From positions 386,222 to 450,221 of the forward strand of contig VXNX01000013.1 of the NCBI GenBank assembly GCA_009840385.1: a stretch of DNA of 64,000 nt, written 5' to 3'. This document shows positions 2,851 to 62,736 of the stretch, in pieces. Positions within the stretch are counted from its first letter, which is position 1. Each line of letters opens with the position of its first letter. The notes beneath the pieces were generated by a model. The model was not told the DNA's origin. It was given only the letters and a program-made list of their open reading frames with translations, and ran no database searches. This DNA is from Candidatus Dadabacteria bacterium (lineage in GTDB: Bacteria; Desulfobacterota_D; UBA1144; Nemesobacterales; Nemesobacteraceae). A program made the translations under genes and the position numbers.

Positions 2851-4200
2851 ATGTCCCAGGAATCCTATCTCACCCCCAGAGAAATAGTATCGGAACTTGA
2901 CAAATACATAGTCGGACAGAACATGGCCAAAAGGGCCGTTGGCGTCGCACTTAGAAACAGGTGGAGAAGACAGAAGGTATCTCCTGAGCTCAGAGACGAG
3001 ATTTCTCCCAAGAACATACTGATGATGGGACCCACCGGGGTCGGGAAAACCGAGATAGCGCGGCGTCTCGCGAAACTCGCTCAGGCACCCTTCGTAAAAG
3101 TAGAAGCGTCCAAGTTCACCGAGGTCGGCTACGTAGGGAGGGACGTTGAGTCGATGATACGGGATCTCACGGAGATAGCCGTCAACATGGTGACCGAGGA
3201 AGAGACCTTGTCCGTTAACACAAGGGCCAGAGAACTTGCCGAGGACAAGCTGATTGACCTGCTCGTTCCGACGCGCCCCGTCACGGAGGCGGATGGGGAC
3301 ATCGACGAGGCAAAAAGGAAAATGAGCGAGACCAAGAAGAAGATGAGAAAACTTCTCTGGGACGGAAAGCTTGACGACAGGGAGGTCGAGATAGAGATAA
3401 CGGCGAGGTCACTCCCGATACAGGTGTTCAGTCAGGCGGGAGTGGAGGAGATGGATCCCGGGATCTCGGAGATGATCGGAAGTCTCATGCCCAAGAAATC
3501 AAAGGTGAGAAAGGTGAAGGTCCCTGAAGCCATGGACATCCTCACCGAGGAGGAAGCCCGAAGGCTGATAGACATGGACAAGGTAACGCAGCTCGCTTTA
3601 GAGAGAACAGAGAACTCGGGGATTATCTTCATAGACGAGATAGACAAGGTCGCAGGGAAAAACGGCGTTTCGGGCCCCGATGTTTCAAGGGAGGGAGTGC
3701 AGAGGGACCTTCTCCCGATAATCGAGGGAAGCAGCGTAACAACAAAGCACGGGATGGTCAGAACCGACCATATACTTTTCATCGGAGCCGGGGCGTTTCA
3801 CGTCTCAAAACCATCTGATCTAATACCCGAACTCCAAGGGCGTTTCCCAATAAGGGTAGAGCTTGAGGCGCTCACAAAAGACGACTTCATACGAATCCTC
3901 ACCGAGCCCAAAAACGCGCTCATAAAACAGTACACCGAGCTTATGAGGACCGAGGATATAAACCTCGTATTCAGCGAACAAGCGGTGGAAAAAATAGCTG
4001 AGACCGCTGCTGAGGTTAACAGCTCCACCGAGAACATAGGGGCGAGAAGACTCCACACCGTTCTTGAGAAACTGCTTGACGAGATATCCTTTAACGCTCC
4101 CGACATGAAGGAGAAGAAATTCACCATAGACAAAAGCTATGTCGAGGAGAAAATAGCCGACATCGTCAGGGACCGTGACCTCAGCAGGTACATACTCTAG
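2851..4200 (+). CDS. hslU: HslU (ClpY) AAA+ unfoldase subunit
   Basis: ATPase that unfolds substrates and feeds them to HslV. It is 449 residues, the normal size. Walker A GPTGVGKT is at 60-67, pore loop GYVG at 93-96, the intermediate domain lies between about 105 and 245, Walker B IIFIDEID at about 258-265, and the conserved C-terminal tail RDLSRYIL, which docks into HslV, is present. No junction bases separate it from hslV. It is followed after 61 bases, with no T-tract terminator visible, by the ATP-grasp/alpha-E/Anbu/transglutaminase genes on the same strand. Confidence 0.97.
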
Positions 4201-57914: not shown

Positions 57915-58097
57915 ATGCTTAGAACAAACATCCTCGGAGGAATTCTTATAACCGCACTCGTTCTCTTTATAATCGGTTTCGGAATTTCCCTCAAATTTTC
58001 ACTTGACTGGTCTTTTTACTTCAAGACTCTCTCGGTAGTCGGCGCGGTCGCGCTTGCGGTTTCCTTGATAATCCACCTTATACCTTCAAGAAACTGA
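57915..58097 (+). CDS. Small two-helix membrane protein
   Basis: 60 residues with two hydrophobic segments (GILITALVLFIIGFGISL and LSVVGAVALAVSLIIHL) joined by a short polar turn. No family recognised. It is supported as a real gene by a promoter upstream, a Shine-Dalgarno (GGAG), and a hairpin terminator beginning two bases past its stop. Function unknown. Confidence 0.65.
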   Translation: MLRTNILGGILITALVLFIIGFGISLKFSLDWSFYFKTLSVVGAVALAVSLIIHLIPSRN

Positions 58098-58135: not shown

Positions 58136-59221
58136 TCACAAACCCCTAAGCGCAAGGCCTACTGCAACTGTCATCTTCGGGGCCAGATGCTCGATGTACT
58201 CCGAGTCAAAACGCGAATCCGAAACAGCGATATTGCGAAAAGGATTTGAAATCTCAACTGATGTCCCCGTAGCATCCCCTAACGCGTCAGGCATGGTAGC
58301 GATCTTGGAAGATCCCCCAGAAAGGATTATGCGGGCAAGCCCGCCTCCTGCATCGTCCAGAAACGTTTTTATCTCACCCACGGCACGGGCGACAAAATCG
58401 GCGAAAACAGAGGTTATCTCATCATATCTGCCGTAACCCTTTATGCTGCACTTTATTCTCTCCGCCTCCTCATAGGTGATCTTGAACTTCTCCATAAGGC
58501 GGAGCGTGACCCATTGCCCTCCAAACGGAATGTCTCTCAGCATGAAAGGCACGCCGTCGTCCAAAACGCTCAGATTGATCACCGACGCCCCAATGTCTAC
58601 AAGTGCCACTTTCTCGCCGCGAACTGCACAGGAAACCGCGTAGGCGTTTGAAAGGGCCATGGCGTCAATATCAATTACCCGAGCGCGAAGGCCCGCGGTG
58701 GAAACCAAGTTTTTATATCCCTGCGCCGTTTTTTTCGAAACCGCAGCGATCAGCACCGGGACCTCCGCTGATTTTCCGTTGCGCCGGAAAAGCGGAGTAT
58801 AGCTGTAATTAACCCCGCCAACGTTTCTCCGAAGACTGGTGCTCACAAGGTCCGGAACAAGCTTTTCCATGTCATTTCTGAGAAGAGTTTTGGGAACACT
58901 GACGATTTTTAAAGCAACGGCTTCGCCGGAGAGACCTATGGCTACCCTTCTTGCCTTTATGCCGAGTTTTGAAACAAGATTTGAGATGACCGCCGAAACC
59001 ACGTCTCCCTTTGAAACCGACTTGCCGGTTATAGCGCCGCTTGGGAGCATAGCCTCTCCAATATTCTCAAGCCGGTAATTTCCGCCCTCGTAGGCAAATT
59101 CCACGACCTTAACGGAATTTGAACCTATATCCACTCCAACCATGGAGTCTTTCCCCTCGGAGGACGAATCCGGGCGGTGAAGTTTGCCAAAAGCCAATTT
59201 TTTAAACGGAGAAATCAACAA
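58136..59221 (-). CDS. pilM: PilM-like actin-fold ATPase
   Basis: 361 residues of the PilM/FtsA-like family, which in type IV pilus machines forms a cytoplasmic ring bound to PilN. The phosphate-1 motif MVGVDIGSNSVKVVEF (about 27-42), EKVALVDIGASVINLSVL and RIILSGGSSKIATMPDAL fit the actin fold. No pilN, pilO, pilP or pilQ follows: the next DNA is an unrelated gene on the other strand. It is instead the last gene of an XRE-sensor-lipoprotein operon, 15 bases behind the lipoprotein, which suggests a role outside a standard pilus locus. Confidence 0.88.
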   Translation of the reverse strand: MLISPFKKLAFGKLHRPDSSSEGKDSMVGVDIGSNSVKVVEFAYEGGNYRLENIGEAMLPSGAITGKSVSKGDVVSAVISNLVSKLGIKARRVAIGLSGEAVALKIVSVPKTLLRNDMEKLVPDLVSTSLRRNVGGVNYSYTPLFRRNGKSAEVPVLIAAVSKKTAQGYKNLVSTAGLRARVIDIDAMALSNAYAVSCAVRGEKVALVDIGASVINLSVLDDGVPFMLRDIPFGGQWVTLRLMEKFKITYEEAERIKCSIKGYGRYDEITSVFADFVARAVGEIKTFLDDAGGGLARIILSGGSSKIATMPDALGDATGTSVEISNPFRNIAVSDSRFDSEYIEHLAPKMTVAVGLALRGL

Positions 59222-59236
59222 AACGAGGATGGAAGA

Positions 59237-59599
59237 CTACTCTTCCAAAAGGTCGTAATATATTTGTACTTCCCTGGAATGGGCTTCCGGGGGAAGATTA
59301 TCGAAACTGGCCGTGAAGAAAAAGCTTTGCGCCGGATCAAGTATATCCCCTTCTTCAACAAGGGCAGAGGTTGCGGCAAGGGCGTTTCCGTCCGAATCCT
59401 TCACGAAGATAACAACATAGACCGACTGCACGGGGAAATTCGCCGTGTTCACGACGGCGCCGTTAAAATCCACGCTCCCGTCAAAGTTCTCAGTCTCGAG
59501 AACGGGCCCGTCAAGCTCGACGGCGGATTCTTCCGCGATACAGGCCGCAAGGAAAAGAACCCCAAAAACAAAGGATATTATCAGAAAACTTTTTTTCAT
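59237..59599 (-). CDS. Lipoprotein with FxLYD-like domain
   Basis: 120 residues. A lipoprotein signal (KKSFLIISFVFGVLFLAAC, Cys at 20) is followed by one immunoglobulin-like FxLYD-type beta domain: GAVVNTANFPVQSVYVVIF, DSDGNALAATSALV and LDPAQSFFFTASF. Such domains are common in small secreted proteins and are thought to mediate binding. Its ATG overlaps the stop of the upstream sensor-like gene by four bases. Confidence 0.85.
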   Translation of the reverse strand: MKKSFLIISFVFGVLFLAACIAEESAVELDGPVLETENFDGSVDFNGAVVNTANFPVQSVYVVIFVKDSDGNALAATSALVEEGDILDPAQSFFFTASFDNLPPEAHSREVQIYYDLLEE

Positions 59600-60360
59600 T
59601 TTTCCGGTTTAGTACCCACGTTTGAAATCGAAATGACGTTCCTTGAGTCCGCGGTTTTTTCCTCCGGAGATTTTTTATCCTCCGAAGCGTGATCTTCTAT
59701 TATGTCTCCTAGCACCTTGTGCATAAGCTTAAGGGCACTTATGGAGTGTTCCTTCAGGTAACCCTCTCCGCCAAAAGGTATCTCTTCTTTTCTCCTTCTG
59801 AGAAACAGATGAAGAATGAAGGCCTGGTTGTTAAGCACCACTAAAATGGCTACATAAAGCAAAAAGTTGTCGGCGAAGACCTTTTTCATCAACGTTTTCG
59901 TATCGGAGTCGATTTTAACTATGCCGAGCGGCCCGTCGGCCTGCGGAGCGAGAAACGGAACGGAAACGGAAATCTTCCCTGCATATTTCTCAACCGAGTA
60001 TCCCTCGGGAGGATAAGAATTTTCCAGAAAATGCCCGGAAGCTATTTCATTTTCTCCCTGTTTCGTAAAAGTGACGCTGAAAAACTTTGGGGAAACGCCG
60101 AAAGTGTTAAACAGTTTTTCCCTGCCCAGCCTTTCGTCAAGAAAAAGATAGAATTCGTCGCTTGTGGATGCTTCCCCATGGTCTCTGTAAAAGGTGGTTG
60201 CCTGGTCCCCTATTGTTTCGGCAATAGCTCGTGTCCTCGTGACGAATTCTTTTTTCGCGTTGTCAAACTGGAAATAAAACACCACCCCTATAAGGGCGAT
60301 AATGCCCAATTCAACCATGGATATTTTGAACAACAATCCAAGTTTTTGGTTCAGGCGCAT
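59596..60360 (-). CDS. Sensor-like membrane protein with extracytoplasmic domain
   Basis: 254 residues, family not recognised. One helix (VELGIIALIGVVFYFQF) near the N-terminus, then about 140 residues outside the membrane, then a second helix (NFLLYVAILVVLNNQAFILH) and a cytoplasmic tail of about 75 residues with a helical start and a charged, disordered end. The outer domain looks like a Cache/PAS-type ligand sensor of chemoreceptors and kinases (SVPFLAPQADGPLGIVKIDS), but no kinase, HAMP or methyl-accepting domain follows. It overlaps the XRE gene by 10 bases and the lipoprotein gene by 4. Confidence 0.75.
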   Translation of the reverse strand: MRLNQKLGLLFKISMVELGIIALIGVVFYFQFDNAKKEFVTRTRAIAETIGDQATTFYRDHGEASTSDEFYLFLDERLGREKLFNTFGVSPKFFSVTFTKQGENEIASGHFLENSYPPEGYSVEKYAGKISVSVPFLAPQADGPLGIVKIDSDTKTLMKKVFADNFLLYVAILVVLNNQAFILHLFLRRRKEEIPFGGEGYLKEHSISALKLMHKVLGDIIEDHASEDKKSPEEKTADSRNVISISNVGTKPEK

Positions 60361-60764
60361 TTTACGAATTCTTCAAGTATCTTGCGTAATTTTTTGTCTT
60401 GGGAATGACGGAGAAGCATGAATATCATTCCGGCAAAATCCTTTTTTATCTCTCCGTCAAGGCTTCTGTAAAGCTTAACGAGCATCTTCTCCTCGTTTGT
60501 GAGAACCTCGAGTTCCTGCTCGGATATGGCTTCTTTATCGATGAATCTTTTGAGTCTCTCAGCCCTTGAAACGCTCCATATTTCTTCAACCTTGACCCCC
60601 AATATTGAAGATATCTGCCGGCAGCGATCAAGAGAGGGTGCGTCAACCTTCCCTGTCTCAAGCTGATGTATATACACGCTTGAAACGTCAAGAGATCGAG
60701 CTAGATTCTCCTGTGTAATTTTTTTTCTCTTCCTTATCCTCTTTAGATAATCTCCAAATTTCAT
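60351..60764 (-). CDS. XRE-family transcriptional regulator with helical tail
   Basis: 137 residues: an N-terminal helix-turn-helix (FGDYLKRIRKRKKITQENLA, then RSLDVSSVYIHQLETGKVDA) and a C-terminal helical region of about 65 residues (EEKMLVKLYRSLDGEIKKDF). First gene of the four-gene run ending in pilM, with CGGAGGAG before its ATG. It probably regulates the operon, perhaps in response to the sensor-like protein; that is inference. Confidence 0.85.
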   Translation of the reverse strand: MKFGDYLKRIRKRKKITQENLARSLDVSSVYIHQLETGKVDAPSLDRCRQISSILGVKVEEIWSVSRAERLKRFIDKEAISEQELEVLTNEEKMLVKLYRSLDGEIKKDFAGMIFMLLRHSQDKKLRKILEEFVKCA

Positions 60765-60889
60765 TTAAAACTCCTCCGAGAATAAAATAGTCCTATGTAT
60801 GGCAAGTTTAACCTAATGTATATAACAAAACAACTTGGCAAGACGCACCTCGGCTAAGACAGTTTAAAAACCTGGAACAGAAAAAAGAA

Positions 60890-61330
60890 TCAGAACGACG
60901 CGCAGGTGGCTTTAACCTCGCGCAAAACCCCCTGCTGGGAGAACCTCTGCTTGTACTCCTCGATAATCCTGTCTATTCCGGGAGCGGAGTCGGCATCAGG
61001 CGGGACGAGTATTATAAGTACCTTAGTATCCTCTTTTATCAGATTTCCTGCGGAGTCCGTGTACTGTCCATAGGCATCTAAGACGGTAAGACCGGCTGGA
61101 AACTCCACAGTGATGGTATCTTCGAGAAAACCTTCCCACTGCTGATCACTAACGACCTGGGGATTATCCGCATCTCCACGCCCGAAAAAAAGCCTGTATT
61201 CGGTATAGGGTTCGGTGCCGTCAGGACATGGGTTTGTCTGTGCCTCGGAAGAACATGAAAGGATAAGAGCGCAAGCCGCAAGAGCGACAACAGTGGCGAG
61301 AGCGCCAGACATCCGATTAAGCTTCGACAT
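60890..61330 (-). CDS. DUF3574 lipoprotein
   Basis: 146 residues. Lipoprotein signal with lipobox LILSC (Cys near residue 26), then the DUF3574 core: YRLFFGRGDAD, VSDQQWEGFLEDTITVEFPA, GLTVLDAYGQYTDSAG and KVLIILVPP. Function of the family is unknown. The gene lies just downstream of tRNA-Phe on the same strand, 46 bases away. Confidence 0.85.
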   Translation of the reverse strand: MSKLNRMSGALATVVALAACALILSCSSEAQTNPCPDGTEPYTEYRLFFGRGDADNPQVVSDQQWEGFLEDTITVEFPAGLTVLDAYGQYTDSAGNLIKEDTKVLIILVPPDADSAPGIDRIIEEYKQRFSQQGVLREVKATCASF

Positions 61331-61376
61331 AAATCACCTCGCTCAAGTGTCCCTGTAAGAACGTGACAAAATGATG

Positions 61377-61449
<73 letters not shown>

Positions 61450-61629: not shown

Positions 61630-62736
61630 CTATACGTCAAGCCAGTAAAGAAGCTGTACGGCAAATCCGTGCTGATCATCTCCTCCGGCGAAATAAGCGT
61701 CGTCTCCGTCTGCCTTGTCGTACCTGTACTCAAGTCTCGTCTCGAAGTTCCCCACGGACTCGAAAGGAGTCAATATGAGCGTTGAGGTAAACTCGTAAAG
61801 CTTGACGCCCGCCAAACCCGTGAAGTTTCCGTCATCGTCATAGTTTCTTATTTCCTCGTCATCAACATATTCACCCCTGAGAGCGAGTGACATGGAGTCC
61901 GCAAGACTCACTATCGCGTAACCAGCAAAACCCCAGCGGTCTCCGCCGTAGTCATGCGACGTATACTCGAAATCGGCTATCAAGGTGACTTTCTCCATGA
62001 GGGTCATGGTACCAACGACCGTGACAAGGGTCCTAGTATCGCCGTCAGTATCGCCGAAGTATCCAGTAACGCCGAGCCAGCCGTCGTTTGGCAGATTAAG
62101 CGCGATCTGGCCTTCAAATGTCTTGCCGTCGTCTTCATCATCAAGCGCATCCCAGTCGTTGCTCAGGCCAAGCGCGAAATCAAGCGATCCGGCACTGAAG
62201 GTGGCGCGCACACCGCTATGCGCAAACGGAATCCTGTAGAAAAGCAGGGATCTCGTTATGTTGGTGTTGTCCTTGGCTTCTATAAGCTCCCAGCCGGCAA
62301 GCGTGGTGAACTGACCTGCGTAGACGTTAAGACCGCTTCCGGCCCCGGGAATGAGCACGTTTATGTAAGCCTGGTAAGGGCTTACCGCGCCGTCACCATC
62401 GCTGTTAAAACCGAAGCCGAGCCGCTCGGCCTGCTCGCCGAAAAGAACATCAGCCCTGAAACCCACCTGATCCATCACTCCTTCGCCGACGGTTGGAACC
62501 TTTTCAAGCGAAAGGGTGAAGGCATCTATCGAAAAATCGTTATGCTCGGGATAAAGGCCCCTCTCGTCGATCCCCTCTCCGACTTCCCCATCCGAAATAT
62601 ACTGATAGGTCGTGTCGAGCGAAACGCCGATCCCAATCGAATTTCCGATATCAACGGCGTTTGCCCTAGGGGCCGTAAACTGGGCCCCCAGCAGCAAAAC
62701 CGTTGCGATCATCAATTTAGAAACTATACTTCTCAT
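61630..62736 (-). CDS. Outer-membrane porin (beta-barrel)
   Basis: 368 residues. A signal peptide ends near PRANA/VDIGNS. The rest is alternating beta-strand sequence with aromatic girdles, short turns rich in Asp/Gly, and YWLDV as the closing strand. It fits the OmpL/BBP2-like barrel families found in deltaproteobacteria-like groups. Acidic loops (DWDALDDEDDGKTF, YDKADGDDAYFAGGDDQ) suggest cation preference. It follows amt by 61 bases with AAAGGAGGAG before its ATG, and ends at a clear terminator, so it may help ammonium cross the outer membrane; that link is inferred from position. Confidence 0.85.
   Translation of the reverse strand: MRSIVSKLMIATVLLLGAQFTAPRANAVDIGNSIGIGVSLDTTYQYISDGEVGEGIDERGLYPEHNDFSIDAFTLSLEKVPTVGEGVMDQVGFRADVLFGEQAERLGFGFNSDGDGAVSPYQAYINVLIPGAGSGLNVYAGQFTTLAGWELIEAKDNTNITRSLLFYRIPFAHSGVRATFSAGSLDFALGLSNDWDALDDEDDGKTFEGQIALNLPNDGWLGVTGYFGDTDGDTRTLVTVVGTMTLMEKVTLIADFEYTSHDYGGDRWGFAGYAIVSLADSMSLALRGEYVDDEEIRNYDDDGNFTGLAGVKLYEFTSTLILTPFESVGNFETRLEYRYDKADGDDAYFAGGDDQHGFAVQLLYWLDV

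Follow-up and report, generated by a model that had tools for sequence, protein, structure and literature searches.

Organization of the locus

The locus lies in the genome of a sponge-associated bacterium of the little-studied phylum Candidatus Dadabacteria (1.66 Mb in 14 contigs). In the window, that is, the whole stretch of 64,000 nucleotides that was analysed, four genes follow one another on the reverse strand. They are listed here in the direction of transcription, together with their upstream context and the parts discussed below.

61630–62736 (-): outer-membrane beta-barrel porin, an upstream neighbour conserved in most lineages; context.
61376–61449 (-): tRNA-Phe (ARAGORN), between the porin gene and xre; context, outside the unit.
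60804–60828 (-): conserved block 5′ of xre, TTGTTATATACATTAGGTTAAACTT, probable promoter and candidate operator for XRE (genus alignment).
60351–60764 (-): xre, XRE-family regulator of 137 aa (HTH_3, 6.4e-12), directly 5′ of the sensor gene in 57/57 sensor loci.
59596–60360 (-): membrane sensor of 254 aa (alignments, AlphaFold2 model), overlapping xre by 10 bases.
59869–60264 (-): sensor residues 33–164, extracytoplasmic Cache/PAS-like part, fast-diverging (20% identity with the outgroups).
59683–59763 (-): sensor residues 200–226, conserved cytoplasmic helix, GYLKEHSISALKLMHKVLGDIIEDH (57% identity between the order and the outgroup phyla).
59237–59599 (-): FxLYD-like lipoprotein of 120 aa (FxLYD_dom, 1e-3; lipobox LAAC), overlapping the sensor gene by 4 bases.
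58136–59143 (-): orphan pilM, 335 aa (PilM_2, 5.2e-52), conserved start at 59143.
58628–58912 (-): pilM region of about residues 78–172, including subdomain 1C, where most of the residues invariant in type IV pilus systems are lost.

An earlier note on this DNA had described a compact and uncharacterised operon of four genes. The genes, their strands and the overlaps of 10 and 4 bases are confirmed. The gap of 15 bases that it gave between the FxLYD gene and pilM has to be dropped, because it relies on a TTG at 59221 that is not conserved: in several relatives of the genus, stops interrupt the frame 5′ of 59143. At 59143, preceded here by GAGGGG, 9/10 genomes have an ATG or a GTG; this start leads to a gap of 93 bases and a PilM of 335 aa. 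A weak hairpin at the end of the FxLYD gene bears on the co-transcription of pilM; it was counted against the explanation preferred below.

The block of 25 bases at 60804–60828 covers the probable promoter of xre and is conserved in the genus. By eye, this conservation covers the promoter itself and not the stretch further up, and no other copy of the block is found in the genome at three mismatches or fewer. The motif TATAATGTAAAATTA, considered as a shared operator, was rejected: although strong in f7 and a few more families, it does not rise above shuffles in this genus or in family f8. Scans for sigma-70 promoters and terminators likewise gave matches no more frequent than in shuffles. Two further reading frames flank the four genes. 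Between tRNA-Phe and xre, a DUF3574 lipoprotein-like gene (60890–61330, -; Pfam 1.3e-31) is variable in the genus. Between pilM and rnr, positions 57915–58097 (+) encode a hydrophobic protein of 60 aa, 88–98% conserved in the genus, for which no family was matched at a meaningful score.

The regulator, the membrane protein and the lipoprotein

The regulator consists of an HTH domain (residues 1–62) and a conserved helical C-terminal part (residues 63–137), and its profile matches, among solved structures, HTH-type regulators only. In the membrane protein, TM1 (about residues 13–32) is followed by an extracytoplasmic domain, TM2 (about 165–188) and a cytoplasmic helix; in the AlphaFold2 model, two hydrophobic helices flank an extracytoplasmic alpha/beta domain. 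In Pfam and NCBIfam, no family reached a meaningful score with the protein and no kinase, HAMP, MCP or GGDEF output domain was revealed; the profile of the protein found nothing among solved structures. The topology of the model (pLDDT 65) fits what is expected of a Cache/PAS outer domain, a long N-terminal helix and then a PAS-like sheet, placed between two TM helices. With this low-confidence model, the best Foldseek matches were the outer domains of LuxQ, WalK, CitA and DctB (probability at most 0.99, E 0.003–0.1), none reaching E<=0.001. Such a model gives a weak indication of a Cache/PAS-type outer domain. The description of the protein in the earlier note, a Cache-like outer domain with no signalling output domain, agrees with these searches.

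Conservation is unevenly distributed along these two proteins. Between this order and the outgroups, identity of the sensor amounts to 20% in the outer domain, 29% in TM2 and 57% in the cytoplasmic helix of 27 residues, and the recognition region of the regulator is 67% identical. A variable outer domain, a fixed inner helix and a fixed DNA-reading region are the pattern expected of a split sensor-regulator. Thus, from sequence comparison, we infer that the membrane protein would signal directly to the XRE regulator with no kinase, as in LytTR regulatory systems. Within the genus, dN/dS is 0.04 for XRE, 0.06 for the sensor and 0.12 for the FxLYD protein.

The small protein encoded next had been called an FxLYD-like lipoprotein. 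It carries the lipobox LAAC, and matches FxLYD_dom of NCBIfam with 19 bits (1e-3), under the cut-off of 23 bits. As the match falls short of the cut-off, the name FxLYD-like is a fair one. Of the two proteins that the earlier note proposed to submit to profile searches, this one obtained a weak match and the sensor no family. The profile of the FxLYD protein found nothing among solved structures, and our literature search retrieved no work on FxLYD lipoproteins. In the streamlined family f8, some FxLYD proteins (L059:6745-7083, L060:5578-5958, L062:6903-7283) have lost the lipobox cysteine; these would probably be secreted or soluble proteins rather than lipoproteins.

Distribution of the three-gene module

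The sensor is present, in a single copy each, in 53/58 genomes of Candidatus Dadabacteria (40/43 of those near-complete). Outside the phylum, a first wide survey found it in four of about 330 genomes, which belong to two very small phyla (2 and 3 genomes; sensor in 4/5), and a second wide survey made with a more diverse alignment added one marginal match only. In each of the 57 sensor loci, xre lies immediately 5′ of the sensor gene. Within the phylum, all loci but one show an overlap of the two frames, of 10, 4 or 1 bases, and the FxLYD gene follows the sensor gene in 51/53 loci, being missing in family f5. The order XRE-sensor-FxLYD-pilM is common to 9/9 close relatives. Together with the constancy of the XRE-sensor pair, this indicates that the arrangement is not due to chance, and the conservation of the neighbourhood anticipated in the earlier note is borne out. 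The XRE-sensor-FxLYD trio is an ancient, conserved and undescribed module, found together across at least three phyla; a literature search returned no paper on it, nor on an orphan PilM encoded next to an operon of this sort.

The surroundings of the module vary. In most families of the order, a complete pilMNOPQ operon lies directly 3′ of the trio. In some relatives, inserted genes separate the trio from pilM, or pilM is divergent, or it lies on another contig. The trio is kept in the 14 genomes of about 1 Mb of family f8, where PilM, PilN, PilO, secretin and motor ATPase are all gone and only weak sub-family matches subsist. In the outgroup phyla (L085, L086, L087, L088), the XRE-sensor pair is divergent to gspC in 4/4 genomes, and to gspD too where the contig reaches that far. 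A B12-binding gene follows the FxLYD gene in two outgroup genomes and in f8, with 65–66% identity between f8 and the outgroups. On the other side, a porin, amt or another transporter, and tRNA-Phe are old upstream neighbours of xre, the same tRNA-Phe standing just 5′ of xre in other families. Because the housekeeping genes fmt, rimO and rnr are also collinear in parts of the phylum, this linkage says little on function.

The positions of the trio, directly 5′ of pilMNOPQ in many Dadabacteria and beside gspC-gspD (or gspC at a contig end) in the outgroups, may suggest that its task is to regulate type 4 filament machines specifically, whether type IV pili or type II secretion, and that the cases lacking a machine are leftovers. 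We regard this as unlikely, considering that the trio is kept in the 14 f8 genomes devoid of secretin and motor ATPase, that it evolves slowly in the present genus, which has no pilus, and that the type II operon is located elsewhere in the present genome. A role as regulator of the pilus only was also considered and rejected. A three-gene operon for envelope signalling is the reading that we favour for the trio.

An orphan PilM

The product of the fourth gene matches the PilM profile over its length, with 177 bits for TIGR01175 against a cut-off of 133 in addition to the PilM_2 match. It is the only PilM of the genome, the second match being FtsA, which is encoded beside ftsQ and ftsZ. As the earlier note had it, this PilM stands without PilNOPQ. 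Profile searches of the genome found no PilO, no pilus secretin and no PilB or PilT; the sole matches to the PilN domain, secretin and motor ATPase are GspL, GspD and GspE of type II secretion. PilN, PilO, PilP, PilQ, PilB and PilT were found neither beside pilM nor by the searches made, which covered PilN, PilO, secretin and motor ATPase by profile. The type II system (gspC to gspK, plus gspLMN apart) is encoded elsewhere in the genome, the Gsp names being based on gene order, size and profile matches.

In the 14 genomes of this genus and in the 7 genomes of g14, a genus from another family, pilNOPQ and the pilus ATPases have been lost while pilM was retained. In each genus, one genome gave no true PilM match; both assemblies are fragmented. 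By descent, PilM is part of pilMNOPQ and not of the trio, and the gene at this locus, still intact, is all that is left of a pilus operon. The PilM tree joins the orphans of this genus and of g14 (SH-aLRT 85), as a single common event might have produced, whereas the XRE+sensor tree puts g14 with its family, which bears type IV pili. As both orphans are fast and the two trees disagree, the grouping in the PilM tree is read as long-branch attraction, and the losses in the two genera were likely separate events.

The evolution of the orphan PilM combines conservation and change. Its predicted fold matches the solved structures 2YCH, 5EOU and 3JC8 (TM about 0.7–0.8), its length is 335 aa in 10/10 genomes compared, its dN/dS is 0.21, and the residues of the nucleotide site (DIG, GA, GG) are kept. 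The stem branch of the genus measures 1.89 changes per site in the PilM tree and 0.36 in the XRE+sensor tree; for g14, the values are 0.41 and 0.21. Pilus-bearing relatives share 85 invariant columns; at 26 of them, all compared members of the genus carry another residue. These losses are clustered: 21/26 fall at 85–177 (Fisher p 4e-5), a region that takes in subdomain 1C of the IA-IC cleft, into which PilN inserts; 21 of its 40 invariant columns are replaced. In g14, all 8 lost invariant columns fall within the same limits. Docking residues are judged here from invariance rather than from contacts, and PMC7613929 is the source for where the IA-IC cleft lies.

Because the protein is intact, keeps its nucleotide site, is under purifying selection and has its region including the PilN-docking subdomain rewritten, PilM has most likely been kept for a job independent of PilN. 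The main rival on PilM is that the gene is a relict in slow decay, with no new function and merely not yet deleted. The strong acceleration on the stem branch, the loss of pilus-specific residues, a dN/dS that is the highest among six genes compared, and the outright loss of the gene in f8 would all agree with decay. Against it stand the length of exactly 335 aa in all ten genomes, the dN/dS of 0.21 and the intact nucleotide site, as well as the retention of pilM in a second genus. We hold this explanation to be unlikely.

A further possibility, put forward in the earlier note, is that the four genes specify a single complex of the envelope, with PilM docked on the cytoplasmic part of the sensor in place of PilN. 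That pilM has stayed next to the trio in both genera that lost pilNOPQ, this one and g14, and remains under purifying selection, may be cited in its favour. However, f8 has the trio and no PilM, the trio lies away from pilM in several relatives and in the outgroups (beside other genes in the latter), and the adjacency of the FxLYD gene and pilM is ancestral. Furthermore, the N-terminus of the sensor (MRLNQKLGLL) is without the consensus of the PilN docking peptide, MI[RK][IV]NL[LI]P, and an alignment comparison reveals no obvious change of it in the lineages that have no PilN, while the PilM region with the PilN-docking subdomain is the one that was rewritten. The sensor was rejected as a PilN substitute, and the idea that the four genes form one functional unit with PilM under the sensor is not supported. 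Such docking is possible, unsupported by these data, and a four-gene complex appears improbable. No other pilMNOPQ was found in the genome and the neighbourhood is conserved, in agreement with the earlier note, but the pattern of conservation separates PilM from the other three proteins. Overall, the interpretation in that note is partly supported. A PilM retained for a PilN-independent task next to an ancient three-gene operon is the interpretation carried forward here.

Likeness to known systems

In the LytTR regulatory systems (LRS), such as HdrRM and BrsRM, a regulator is co-encoded with a membrane protein whose gene follows, and no kinase is involved (PMC6193735); membrane sequestration in LRS is summarised in PMC13384398. 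The order of the genes (57/57 loci here) and the absence of a kinase are shared with the present module. In both cases, the membrane protein is proposed to act directly on the regulator, and autoregulation is proposed. An LRS is further characterised by a membrane protein that inhibits its regulator and by autoregulation of positive sign. The differences are several. The LRS regulator is of the LytTR family, whereas an XRE regulator (HTH_3) is found here, and the LRS membrane protein has 3–4 TM helices and no outer domain, whereas the present one has two and an outer sensor domain. In addition, a lipoprotein is present here, and by eye no conserved block was seen 5′ of the promoter, where LRS have direct repeats upstream of the -35 element. 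By analogy, the trio may work like an LRS without being one; regulator family and membrane topology were tested and do not fit.

Another parallel is BcrR, whose DNA-binding part we take to be of the XRE type. In BcrR as in the present module, XRE-type DNA binding would be tied to a membrane signal with no kinase. BcrR is a membrane-bound bacitracin sensor (PMC13384398), whereas here two separate proteins are involved and the signal domain is outside the membrane. With the sensor kinases LuxQ, WalK, CitA, DctB and DcuS, the membrane protein may share the predicted fold of the outer domain; unlike sensor kinases and chemoreceptors, it has no histidine kinase, HAMP, GGDEF or methyl-accepting part. 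The orphan PilM shares with the PilM of type IVa pili (2YCH, 5EOU, 3JC8) its fold, the residues of the nucleotide site and the PilM_2 family, but no pilus partner genes were found and invariant residues at 85–177 are lost. Finally, FtsA, which is actin-like, binds the short cytoplasmic tail of FtsN in its IA-IC cleft (PMC7613929). FtsA and PilM have the same fold, and the host genome encodes its own separate FtsA.

A model for the operon

The explanation that we favour, as a probable though not a secure one, is that of a three-gene operon for envelope signalling and, 3′ of it, the one gene left from a former pilus operon, PilM being kept for a job independent of PilN. In this model, XRE and the sensor would form a split transmembrane regulator. 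The Cache/PAS-like outer domain would read a signal, which would be transmitted through TM2, and the conserved cytoplasmic helix would act on the XRE protein, made together with the sensor, directly and with no kinase, through tethering or allostery. The conserved promoter block is a candidate operator, through which XRE would control its own operon at least. The FxLYD lipoprotein would be an accessory on the outer face, and PilM would serve its separate task. An explanation of the neighbourhood by slow genome rearrangement only, with no need for XRE, sensor and FxLYD protein to cooperate, would account for the collinearity of fmt, rimO, tRNA-Phe and rnr in parts of the phylum, but is very improbable in view of the pairing of XRE and sensor across three phyla while other neighbours change, of the overlapping frames within the phylum and of the movement of the trio as a block when separated from pilM.

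If the model of a three-gene operon with a separately retained PilM holds, there would be a conserved and unnamed signalling module that withstands the streamlining of genomes in a widespread phylum of marine bacteria and that exists in two further phyla, and the helix of 27 residues together with XRE would offer a precise and testable interface. The orphan PilM would be a natural test of the cytoplasmic actin of the pilus without PilN, the same part having been left by what were probably two separate machine losses. It is tempting to go further and to imagine that Gram-negative bacteria have a new class of transmembrane signalling that needs no kinase, with a Cache-type sensor acting through a helix on a separate XRE regulator and having a lipoprotein partner, together with a PilM that outlives the pilus with a new partner in some lineages; this broader proposal is tentative, and we lean against it for the present.

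Other pilus-related genes in the phylum

Several genes of relatives deserve mention. The gspLMN genes of this phylum lie far from gspC-K, and a GspL-like protein (G000:C13:625247; L090:4018-5484) has a PilN-like part, the PilM profile being also matched in relatives. In g14, the orphan pilM is followed by a gene for a protein of 212–213 aa (L044:8161-8802, L045:3602-4240, L046:2698-3336) with a cysteine-rich, zinc-ribbon-like N-terminus; the one scanned matched no Pfam family. The 212-aa gene was considered as a hidden PilN and rejected, its product being a cysteine-rich, zinc-ribbon-like protein instead. In family f5, a gene for a protein of 137 aa (L050:5343-5756, -) is flanked by a pilM gene of divergent orientation and by a short secretin gene, and a probable counterpart is found in L051 near 3110–3540, these limits being approximate. 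By eye, the L050 protein resembles PilN in its start, MIKVNLI, contains a single TM helix and has a PilP-like C-terminal domain; it gave no Pfam match. It is possibly a miniature PilN-PilP fusion, in a genome without PilO.
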